Below the pieces are notes generated by a model. The model saw only the letters and a list, made by a program, of their open reading frames with translations, ran no database searches and was not told the DNA's origin. Shown here in pieces: positions 45,789 through 54,412 of a stretch of 64,000 nt of DNA. Every line of letters begins with the position of its first letter. The first letter of the stretch is position 1. Position numbers and translations under genes: made by a program. Source of the stretch: Aeromonas fluvialis (lineage in GTDB: Bacteria; Pseudomonadota; Gammaproteobacteria; Enterobacterales; Aeromonadaceae); assembly GCF_000819885.1 (NCBI RefSeq), contig NZ_CDBO01000013.1, positions 1-64,000 on the forward strand, given 5' to 3'.

Positions 45789-47762
45789 ATGACAACCAAT
45801 ATTTCCTCCCTTGCCAACCTGATCTGGTCGGTGGCTGACCTCCTGCGAGGTGATTTCAAGCAGTCCCAGTATGGTCGCATCATTCTGCCGTTCACCGTGT
45901 TACGTCGTCTTGAGTGCGTGCTGGCCCCGACCCGTGAAAACGTGTTGGCCACCGCCGAGAGCACCAAGGCGCTGCCCGAGCTGGCCCGCCATAAGCTGCT
46001 GCTCAATGCCGCTGGGCAGAGCTTCTACAACATCGCCAAGCTCACCCTCGACAATCTCGGCGAGAAGCAGATTGGCGATAACCTGGATGCCTATGTGCGG
46101 GGCTTTTCCCGTGAGGCATTCGAGGTGTTCGAGCACTTCAATTTCGCCGCCAGCATCGATCTGCTGGAAGATGCCGACCTGCTTTACAAGGTGGTCCGCA
46201 ACTTCGCCAACGTCGATCTCTCTCCCGAGACTGTCGACAACTACCACATGGGTCTGGTGTTCGAGGAGCTGATCCGCAAATTTGCCGAAAGCTCTAACGA
46301 GACCGCCGGTGAGCACTTCACCCCCCGTGATATCGTGAGGCTCACCACCTCGCTGGTGTTTGCGGCTGATGACGAGGCTCTGACCACCGCGGGCGTGGTG
46401 CGAACCATCTATGATCCCACCGCTGGCACCGGCGGTTTTCTCTCATGCGGTATGGAGTACCTGCACGAGCTGAACCCGGCGGCACGACTTGCCACCTTCG
46501 GGCAAGAGCTCAACCCCGAGTCATTCGCCATCTGTAAGGCGGACATGCTGATCAAGGGGCAGGAGGTCAACAACATCAAGCTGGGTAACACCCTCTCTGA
46601 CGACCAGCTGCCGACCGATCGGTTCGACTATTGCCTCTCCAACCCGCCATTCGGGGTGGACTGGAAGAAGGTCGAGAAGCAAGTGCGGGACGAACACCTG
46701 CAAAAGGGCTACAGTGGCCGCTTCGGGGCGGGTCTGCCCCGTGTCTCTGACGGCTCACTCTTGTTCCTGCAACATCTGATCGCCAAGATGAAGCCCGCCA
46801 ATGGTGAAGATCAGGGCGCCCGGATCGGCATCATCCTCAACGGCTCCCCGCTCTTTACTGGTGGGGCGGGCAGCGGCGAGAGCGAGATCCGCCGCTATAT
46901 CCTGGAGCACGACCTGCTCGATACCCTGGTGGCCCTGCCCACCGACATGTTCTACAACACCGGCATCGCCACCTATATCTGGGTGCTATCGAACCACAAA
47001 CCGGCGGAGCGTAAGGGCAAGGTGCTGCTCATTAACGCCAGTGACCTGCACAGCCCGATGCGTAAGTCGTTGGGCTCCAAGCGTAAGCAATTGAGCGATG
47101 AGGCCATCGAGGAAGTAGTCCGCCTCGCCAGCCGTTTCGAGGCGAGCCCGATCGCCAAGATCTTCCCCACCACCGCCTTTGGCTATCGCCGCCTGACTAT
47201 CGAGCGGCCGCTGAAACTGGCATTCACCCCGCACGATGCCGAGCGGCTCGCCAGCCTCACCGCCGACAAGGGCTGGGCCAAGCTAGATGCAAATTTGCAG
47301 CAAGCCATCCTTGCGGCCCTGCCAACGCTGCCCGAGCGGTTGCTCTGCCGCGAGCAGTTCAAAAAGCAGCTCACCAAGGCATTAGGCACCATCAAACTGC
47401 CAGCCCCCGCCTTTAAACTGCTGGTGAGCACCTTTGGTGAGCAGAGCGATGAGGCCCAAGTGTGCAAGAGCAAGGGGGAAATGGAGGCCAGCTCCGATCT
47501 GCGGGACTACGAAAACGTGCCGCTCGGGGAAGACATTCATGAGTATCTCCGGCGGGAGGTGCTGCCCCATGTACCGGATGCCTGGATCGACACCAGCAAG
47601 ACCGATCCACTCGATGGTCAGGTAGGCATCGTGGGCTACGAGATCCCCTTTAACCGCCACTTCTACCAGTACCAGCCGCCCCGTTCGCTGGAAGCCATCG
47701 ACGCCGATCTCGATGCAGTGGCCAAGGAGATCATGCAGCTGCTGGCACAGGTGCATTCATGA
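45789..47762 (+). CDS. hsdM: Type I restriction-modification methyltransferase subunit
   Basis: 657 residues. Makes N6-methyladenine together with HsdS. N-terminal helical domain ([42 protein letters not shown]), S-adenosylmethionine loop [15 protein letters not shown], and the catalytic NPPF in [14 protein letters not shown]. The C-terminal region from residue 470 is long, ending with [32 protein letters not shown], as in the large HsdM branch. The frame is open to 45501, but family homology starts here. Confidence 0.95.
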
Positions 47763-47805
47763 TACCAATGCATACTGGCTACTCAGGCATTGCCGACGGG
47801 GTTGG

Positions 47806-54200: not shown

Positions 54201-54412
54201 GCAATAACCCACGGGAATCGATCCTGCATGGCGATTTCCCGAATGCGGTGGATGAAGCCGTCATCGGACGCATGGAAACCCAACAGGGCATGTCGCTGAC
54301 GTACCTCTCTCACCCCGATAAGGCCAGGGCATTGCAGAATATGCTGCTGGACTTGTTGCTCGAGGGGTTGGCTGGTCATCAGGCATTACGGACACAGAGC
54401 CAGCAGGCGTGA
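51221..54412 (+). CDS. hsdR: Type I restriction endonuclease subunit
   Basis: 1063 residues. Nuclease domain in the N-terminal 200 residues with GRLDLTLFLNGIPVATLELKS (D..ExK), then two RecA-like motor domains: Walker A SAGSGKSN near residue 315, DEAH in VADEAHSSQTGK near 436, TATPK, and NKFQTGFDQPKLCAMYVDKRL of motif V/VI. Cuts DNA away from the site after translocation. The C-terminal helical part binds HsdM. Last gene of the island operon. Confidence 0.95.
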   Translation: MSQDHKAREKAFQDHIIAQLAASGWLVGESAHYDKARALYPIDLIAYVQESQPEGWQKYCKTYGEEPERHLLNAVVRALESDERGTLWLLRHQVEDRGHRLAVATFKPDHDLNPTLCERYAKNRLRVVPELVYSPHGYEGRLDLTLFLNGIPVATLELKSCFKQSLENAKQQYRVDRPLVTAGKREPLLAFRRGALVHFAVNQFEVAMTTRLAGADTFFLPFNRGTAKGGAGNDQPETGFASEYLWQEIFAPETFLTILGRYLHLQVKLDEDALGRIKKKETMIFPRYHQWKVVETLLATLSQEGSGQKYLIQHSAGSGKSNSIAWLTHQLASLRRDTDAGESEKLFNSVIVVTDRTVLDSQLQETIAQFDHASGVISRINREEGDGSKSAQLAEALTSGTPIIIVTIQTFPHVLKAIQESTSLKASRFAVVADEAHSSQTGKTARQLREVLMAEQLNDEEELSAEDVMNLTLAARGGSQNISYFAFTATPKAKTLELFGRPPKPHLPISDENKPEPFHVYTMRQAIEEGFILDVLRNYTNYQLAFKLAMESEAADAEVDSRRAKRKLSQWVRLHPHNIGQKVQVIVEHFRQHVGKLLGGQAKAMVVTSSRMEAVRYKLAFDKYVKDQGYQAIRAMVAFSGDIEDEGQTWNERNMNPELKGRDMRKAFDTADYQVMLVANKFQTGFDQPKLCAMYVDKRLTGVDCIQTLSRLNRTYPGKESTYVLDFVNDPQDVLEEFQKYYETATLDSVSDPNLIYDLFHKLKGEGIFTWPEVVAFTDAYFDPKRGADAFLRHAVPARDRFAKRYRLAIDAIRECRTQLKWLMEQGGSGSDQVNAERRLKEAGEARSVLELFKKNLGGYVRFYEFVSQITPFDDYDMERLCVFARHLLPLLREEVLDEEQVDLSSVMLSHYHLKAKRTQDLQLKESAAGYGLEGIASLGSAKPKEEKKDFLSELLARMNDLFGLDVTDGDKLDWVQGMVSKLSENGPLMEQVRNNPRESILHGDFPNAVDEAVIGRMETQQGMSLTYLSHPDKARALQNMLLDLLLEGLAGHQALRTQSQQA

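Follow-up and report, generated by a model that had tools for sequence, protein, structure and literature searches.

A type I restriction-modification operon of Aeromonas fluvialis with two putative, separately controlled RNase toxin-antitoxin modules

Introduction

In EcoprrI, the gene for the HEPN RNase PrrC lies within a type I hsd operon, and PrrC, which has an ABC-ATPase sensor, is gated by the Hsd proteins (PMC3710099, PMC12707154). A 2013 survey listed Abi2/AbiF/AbiD proteins as embedded in restriction-modification (R-M) operons, linked at least 16 HEPN clades to R-M and proposed the analogy with PrrC (PMC3710099); PMC12707154 is a review of R-M guardians, PrrC and PARIS included. Here, we analyze a 64,000-nucleotide (nt) stretch of Aeromonas fluvialis (contig NZ_CDBO01000013.1, positions 1 to 64,000 of the forward strand; "the window"), in which a type I hsd operon at 45789 to 54412 houses two HEPN toxin genes of different families.

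Relatives of both toxins have been studied. AbiF of Clostridioides difficile is toxic in C. difficile and in Escherichia coli and is neutralized by the RNA RCd22 (PMC12373285); structure 8VZ6 is a PbAbiF-RNA complex, and AbiF has been described as a forerunner or ancestor of Cas13 (PMC12737573) and counted as cargo of Tn7-like transposons (PMC8649781). In the Legionella pneumophila HEPN-MNT pair, a short MNT nucleotidyltransferase without the last helix AMPylates a tyrosine (PMC11586414), and the mobility of MNT-HEPN pairs is treated in PMC2701414. The window operon resembles EcoprrI in harboring HEPN RNase genes among hsd genes, and it differs in that its toxins come with putative antitoxins of their own.

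Results

Two HEPN toxin genes lie within one type I operon

The operon comprises seven open reading frames (ORFs) in the order hsdM-Abi_2-hsdS-small ORF-MNT-HEPN-hsdR. An initial annotation of this DNA had given the same order and coordinates, with ATGA overlaps at the abi/hsdS, hsdS/small ORF and HEPN/hsdR junctions; the ORF listing, the coordinates and Pfam matches far above chance agree with it on these points. In the following list, and below, G-numbers denote the genomes searched, of which 37 belong to the genus Aeromonas, and L-numbers denote loci.

45789 to 47762, + strand: hsdM, type I DNA methyltransferase subunit (Pfam HsdM_N and N6_Mtase, 1e-55; PADLOC MTase_I, 905 bits)
47837 to 47865, + strand: likely sigma-70-like promoter, TTGACT-17-TAATAT, ahead of the abiF RNA (position; hexamers and spacing the same in G006)
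47842 to 47857, no strand: perfect 16-nt palindrome TATCGGACGTCCGATA in the promoter spacer, candidate operator (sequence)
47873 to 47920, + strand: abiF RNA, putative AbiFr-like antitoxin RNA (RF03085 match, our own covariance model, fold)
47962 to 48924, + strand: AbiF/AbiD toxin gene (Abi_2, HEPN RNase), GTG start (Pfam, PADLOC and PDB matches)
48921 to 50288, + strand: hsdS, specificity subunit (Pfam Methylase_S, 8e-20; PADLOC Specificity_I, 2e-117)
50285 to 50443, + strand: small CxxC ORF, relic: truncated CxxC gene that retains its 5' part (intact in G006, 94 amino acids; sequence comparison)
50426 to 50517, + strand: 3' tail remnant of a long-type MntA gene otherwise lost, whose frame differs from that of the CxxC part (collinear from 8592 of L167)
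50526 to 50825, + strand: short MNT antitoxin, 99 amino acids (Pfam Polbeta, 6e-13; GSX10DXD at residues 25 to 39)
50835 to 51224, + strand: HI0074-family HEPN toxin (TIGR01987, 98.8 bits; NTase_sub_bind, 2e-27)
51221 to 54412, + strand: hsdR, restriction/translocase subunit (Pfam HSDR_N, SWI2_SNF2 at 3e-23, T1R_D3-like)

With hsdM, hsdS and hsdR present in one operon, each with its expected domains (Pfam, PADLOC), the locus belongs to the type I R-M systems; the scores of hsdM and hsdR against NCBIfam TIGR00497 and TIGR00348 were below the cutoffs. The ATG codons at 45789 (hsdM) and 48921 (hsdS) are each internal to a longer open frame. Among the matches listed, the closest HsdM (91% identity) came from an uncultured Aeromonas.

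An abiF RNA precedes the Abi_2 gene

The 199-nt gap between hsdM and abi contains an abiF RNA that the initial annotation had not reported. Rfam family RF03085 matched at 47879 to 47915 (46.5 bits; gathering score 37), in single copy, directly upstream of the Abi_2 gene and on the same strand. Our own covariance model scored the RNA at 63.3 bits, the window sequence being among its training rows, and the predicted fold (-17.5 kcal/mol, z -4.55) was equaled in stability by none of 200 shuffled sequences. A run of T residues directly follows the hairpin, which probably doubles as a terminator. The Abi_2 protein matched PF07751 (1e-52), PADLOC AbiD (1e-70) and PDB entry 8vz6, an Abi family protein (E 7e-52), and combines the Abi_2 domain with an intact HEPN motif of the RX4-6H type, R210-N-W-S-A-H215. 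Given the abiF RNA in the gap, we assign the Abi_2 gene as an AbiF toxin gene with its own predicted RNA antitoxin. The arrangement shares with the AbiF/RCd22 and type III-like AbiF/AbiFr systems an Abi_2 protein with an RF03085 RNA just upstream, as well as the order promoter, RNA hairpin with U-run, ribosome-binding site and abiF. AbiF/RCd22, however, sits in a prophage lysis module, whereas the window AbiF sits between hsdM and hsdS.

The element TTGACT-17-TAATAT is likely the promoter of the abiF RNA. Of 36 sequences upstream of Abi, 22 had a hexamer resembling a -10 element (at least 5 of 6 positions) 10 to 28 nt ahead of the hairpin, versus 26 of 144 control windows. The palindrome at 47842 to 47857 is a possible operator for some ligand; in G006, its arms TATCG/CGATA are kept and its 6-nt core is altered. 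A triple ACGCAA-like repeat at 47805 to 47831 is kept in part in G006.

Across the other Abi loci scanned, RF03085 reached the gathering score in 11 of 39 (5/19 and 6/20) and lay just before Abi in 10, among them embedded copies in G006, G035 and G302 and both copies of the Chromohalobacter locus L057; in the eleventh, Halomonas L028, the match preceded hsdR and not Abi. A covariance model built from Abi loci (R1) placed an RNA before Abi in 29 of 36 sources at 22 bits or more, although most of these positive sources had trained it. R1 and its alignment (A1) derive from hairpins picked by script for outer-stem pairing, which favors pair counts in the outer helix; the inner helix played no part in the selection. 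Six locus names without the motif (L113, L114, L115, L118, L120 and L155) were dropped before A1 was made, loci whose Abi match started past residue 20 (L119 among them) never entered it, and two duplicates of retained sequences were excluded. Pairs were counted in a second alignment (A2), consisting of all 34 matches to E 1 fitted to the model and including two reverse-strand matches and one away from any Abi. Both sides of a pair had changed in 29 cells versus 6.1 after shuffling (0 of 500 shuffles as high). In the inner helix, both-side changes were found in two of three pairs, 96.6% of cells were paired, and pair 14-65 covaries (CG 18, UA 6, AU 5, unpaired 0). Copies of the RNA also occur in hsd operons without an Abi gene directly behind them (L028:16914-16960, L028:13132-13178 and L054:10158-10217); these are possibly remnants after AbiF loss.

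The second pair is of the short-MNT/HI0074 kind

The initial annotation had described the second HEPN protein as HepT-like. This assignment did not hold: the protein scored 98.8 bits against TIGR01987 (HI0074; cutoff, 55.8) and failed the HepT equivalog test (NF047751, 14.8 bits; cutoff, 60). The PF01934 HepT label was dropped; the Pfam HepT-like match was subthreshold. An RX4HXY motif (R89-X4-H94-X-Y96) and a directly upstream MNT gene encoding GSX10DXD are both present, as in HI0074-type HEPN-MNT pairs. The HEPN protein also matched a solved HEPN toxin, 8xdj (E 3e-10), and in the alignment its Q36/E39 pair falls opposite residues 44 and 47 of that structure. We take 8xdj to be the L. pneumophila toxin because Q44 and E47 are that toxin's named active-site residues (PMC11586414). 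With the L. pneumophila type VII pair (taken as 8xdj/8xeh; PMC11586414), the window pair shares RX4HXY, the Q/E pair and a short MNT with GSX10DXD and without the long C-terminal helix; it differs in being embedded in a type I operon and is known here from sequence. With MntA/HepT of Shewanella oneidensis (type VII), it shares an MNT antitoxin gene ahead of a HEPN toxin gene, but it falls under both NCBIfam equivalog cutoffs (NF047752 and NF047751). By these comparisons, we classify the pair as short-MNT/HI0074, type VII-like. The statement that two different HEPN RNase families share one type I operon is thus upheld, the families being Abi_2 and HI0074.

Sister operons exchange or lack the modules

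Counting the window's own genome, 5 of the 37 Aeromonas genomes encode an HsdR of at least 78% identity, G035 twice; A. caviae KAM479 supplied one further relative, giving seven operons with the window. In the sister operons, whose HsdR proteins are 78 to 97% identical, modules are swapped or absent. AbiF together with an MNT/HEPN pair is present in three of the seven (window, G006 and G035 copy 1), and MNT/HEPN without AbiF in three more (G018, G030 and KAM479). G035 copy 2 has neither and carries another cargo ORF of 179 codons. The initial annotation had called for a search for the same gene order in other genomes: AbiF plus MNT/HEPN does recur in G006 and G035, but the pair there is true MntA/HepT (NF047752, 75 to 77 bits; NF047751, 92 to 94 bits; cutoff, 60) and not HI0074. 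Since the same slot holds different pairs, it has been refilled in place.

The small CxxC ORF records such an event. Over 132 nt (50280 to 50411), the window is 93% identical to the CxxC gene that is intact in G006; the MntA tail begins to match at 50426, with 96% over 74 nt at 50452 to 50525. Remnants of two genes thus meet in the ORF, a deletion scar at which a 5' CxxC fragment adjoins the 3' tail of a second, lost MntA gene. It had been listed as a gene in the initial annotation; as a working gene it is ruled out, and it had no Pfam or PADLOC match and one NCBIfam match far under the cutoff. KAM479, in which a long MntA without its HepT directly precedes a short MNT/HI0074 pair, is collinear with the window at 92% from the MntA tail through the end of hsdR (50426 to 54410); 45587 to 48995 is collinear with G035, also at 92%. 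On a plain reading of these alignments, the window operon is a mosaic: the MNT/HEPN module that first occupied the slot gave way to another.

Embedding and cargo in wider relatives

Among the matches listed, we compiled 80 HsdM loci, 65 of which include hsdR; the counts in these loci apply to that set. AbiF lay inside 4 of the 65 (Halomonas L028, Chromohalobacter L057 with two copies, Acinetobacter L063 and Thioalkalivibrio L066), an HI0074 pair inside 1 (L002, the same contig of 12,936 bases as G030), and both modules inside none. Slot cargo of at least 100 amino acids, named from one representative per cluster, included DUF4357/GIY-YIG (11 proteins), DUF1016/YhcG (7), RhuM/Fic (6), FRG (4), NucS-like (3), AbiEi/AbiEii and others. 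Gene orders on plasmids were hsdM-Abi-hsdS-hsdR, hsdM-hsdS-Abi-hsdR and hsdM-HI0074-MNT-hsdS-hsdR. At L057:12046-16469, each of the two slots in the hsd operon is filled by an AbiF gene with its own abiF RNA.

In a class-wide sample of 369 genomes, including the window's own, Abi was present in 34 and HI0074 in 68. An hsd gene lay within ~1.5 kb in 8 of 29 other Abi loci (6 at 100 bits or more) and in 3 of 29 other HI0074 loci (2 at 100 bits or more). No hsd gene was detected within that distance by our profiles in 21 and 26 loci, respectively; the profiles, made from the window's hsd subfamily, miss distant type I systems, and some loci end at contig ends. All 21 of these Abi loci carried an abiF RNA by a model partly trained on them. 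In a tree of 42 Abi proteins, the state "embedded, with RNA" required at least five gains or losses on starred branches, indicating that AbiF entered or left hsd operons several times; the label "embedded" takes in the weakly supported L101 and L115 and omits L094.

An RNA-less Abi_2 group lies behind hsdS

Six distinct Abi_2 genes (L113, L114, L115, L118, L119 and L120; L155 is the same gene as L118) lacked an abiF RNA by our model and kept the HEPN motif intact. With start codons assigned by eye, their distance to the preceding gene is -8 to +21 nt. That gene is hsdS in five of the six; in L115, another ORF precedes Abi_2, with a weak hsdS match at a greater distance. The six form one tree group (support 85/57; 86% of bootstrap trees), whose neighbor is a member with a weak RNA match (22 bits). 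On a Methylobacter plasmid (L238), Abi_2 begins 0 nt behind hsdS, and an abiF RNA was likewise not detected by our model. Seven other plasmid Abi relatives, absent from the tree, all lie outside hsd operons in the stretch shown: L239 and L240 have no hairpin-like upstream sequence; L241 to L245, from alphaproteobacterial plasmids, have hairpin-like ones by eye in which R1 finds no RNA, and these are possibly divergent abiF RNAs.

Chromosomal setting

One landmark lies upstream of the operon:

45359 to 45455, + strand: ffs, small signal recognition particle RNA (Rfam RF00169, 66.8 bits)

The end of the flanking gene plus ffs (44900 to 45470) was matched in all 37 Aeromonas genomes, in G030 as separate pieces only. 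On the other side, none of 30 loci compared (~1.5 kb around) contained the beginning of the gene to the right of hsdR, and one (L201) contained the 159-nt stretch that follows hsdR. Direct repeats of the ffs region surround the hsd operon in G018 (L153, 494 to 729 and 16764 to 17000), and additional partial ffs copies occur in G001, G010, G013 and G030. It looks as though ffs serves as an island integration site in Aeromonas. In E. coli, no place covering 80% of the query block was found in 5,426 genomes; 145 had a partial match, and the 20 of 150 partial-match records listed all fell under hsdS.

Discussion

We consider it probable, though well short of certain, that this operon carries two complete, self-controlled RNase toxin-antitoxin modules that back up restriction. 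In the hsdM-hsdS slot, the dedicated promoter would yield an abiF RNA of ~45 nt ending at the terminator hairpin, and read-through past the hairpin would give abiF mRNA; binding of this RNA would block the AbiF RNase, in the manner of type III-like systems. In the hsdS-hsdR slot, which earlier held CxxC-MntA-HepT and was later refilled, MNT would AMPylate the tyrosine of RX4HXY and keep the HEPN RNase silent. The data themselves show the sequences, membership in the RNA family, intact motifs, recurrence and the exchange of modules; toxicity, RNA antitoxin action and AMPylation are carried over here from the studied relatives. We infer the triggers and the coupling of expression: phage shutoff of host transcription would let the labile abiF RNA decay, releasing AbiF and stopping growth, and phage upset of MNT or ATP would release the HEPN toxin. 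The modules would also penalize loss of the operon, an addiction effect suited to a mobile operon. Because the abiF terminator stands between hsdM and hsdS, expression of hsdS through hsdR should need read-through, a position that would favor methylase over restriction.

Several observations weigh against this account. A gathering-score RF03085 match just before Abi was missing from 29 of the 39 Abi loci. A simple terminator scan did not list the hairpin, probably because the scan admits short loops only. By our model, the window has one abiF motif, whereas the tested C. difficile RNA RCd22 has two motifs and a separate terminator (PMC12373285); in the window, the hairpin itself would terminate. 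Promoter-like matches (9 of 12 positions) across the region were near chance (6 found versus 4.6 expected), a match of this quality is by itself not significant, and the window's own -10 reached only 4 of 6 in the scripted hexamer test; the promoter call therefore rests on position and conservation. The MNT protein is below the MntA equivalog cutoff (NF047752, 47.7 bits versus 60). Finally, the same slots house many unrelated genes, which suits passengers as well as partners.

That last point bears on the alternative that the modules merely hitchhike, or stabilize a mobile operon by addiction, with no role in defense. The varied cargo families in HsdM loci (among the matches listed), the exchange scar and the ffs direct repeats flanking the G018 operon region speak for it. 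We nevertheless regard this alternative as rather unlikely: several of the cargo families are defense related, effects of AbiF systems on phages are on record (PMC12373285, PMC3710099), and addiction and defense are compatible. Chance insertion in a single strain, with no wider meaning, would fit the lack of AbiF in four of the seven related Aeromonas operons; it is extremely improbable given AbiF plus MNT/HEPN in the other three and two AbiF genes in one L057 operon. A single-strain accident is ruled out by the G006 and G035 operons, and the modules are embedded in other type I operons too.

The initial annotation had drawn on PrrC, which the Hsd complex holds silent, as its precedent. Under such gating, HsdMS(R) would hold AbiF and/or the HEPN toxin silent until anti-restriction proteins release them; the EcoprrI precedent (PMC3710099, PMC12707154), the tight translational overlaps and the repeated embedding all speak for it. 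Yet both toxins have dedicated predicted antitoxins inside the operon, abiF RNA and MNT, so that silencing by Hsd is not needed. At most of the sampled homologs, our profiles detected no hsd gene within ~1.5 kb (any hsd gene near 8/29 Abi and 3/29 HI0074 loci), and modules are swapped or absent beside HsdR proteins that are 78 to 97% identical. By Pfam, the ABC-ATPase sensor of PrrC is in neither protein (Abi has Abi_2 only; HEPN has NTase_sub_bind and the subthreshold HepT-like match). We judge Hsd gating in the window quite unlikely. What survives of the earlier reading is a pair of HEPN families that recurs and is not an accident of one strain, with a two-layer backup against phage as a plausible use; silencing by Hsd is not supported.

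Control by Hsd proteins is more plausible for the RNA-less Abi_2 group than for the window AbiF. One can picture two regimes, an idea we advance tentatively and with some doubt: the window AbiF would keep its RNA, whose promoter and terminator would also govern hsdS-hsdR expression, so that a single RNA couples methylase-first expression, restriction and RNase; the RNA-less group would have lost the RNA, and its antitoxin may now be the Hsd complex, a PrrC-like guard of independent origin.

Embedding of Abi2/AbiF/AbiD in R-M operons was already listed in the 2013 survey, the accessible part of which makes no mention of an RNA antitoxin, a two-module operon, module exchange or an RNA-less group (PMC3710099). 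In a search of mainly open-access literature, no paper turned up that describes two toxin-antitoxin modules in a single hsd operon, an exchange there between HepT and HI0074 types, or Abi_2 genes that follow hsdS without an RNA. An operon-internal RNA antitoxin, the swapping of modules and the Abi_2 group lacking the RNA seem to be new.

As read here, one operon would join protein-DNA defense by type I R-M with two RNase suicide modules whose antitoxins are unrelated, and its relatives variously lack, swap or keep each module. The pairing of RNA-bearing AbiF with RNA-less Abi_2 makes the PrrC question testable, namely, whether R-M genes can be the antitoxin or sensor for an RNase. If AbiF did give up its RNA for protein partners, this would have broader significance, AbiF being described as the ancestor of Cas13 (PMC12737573).

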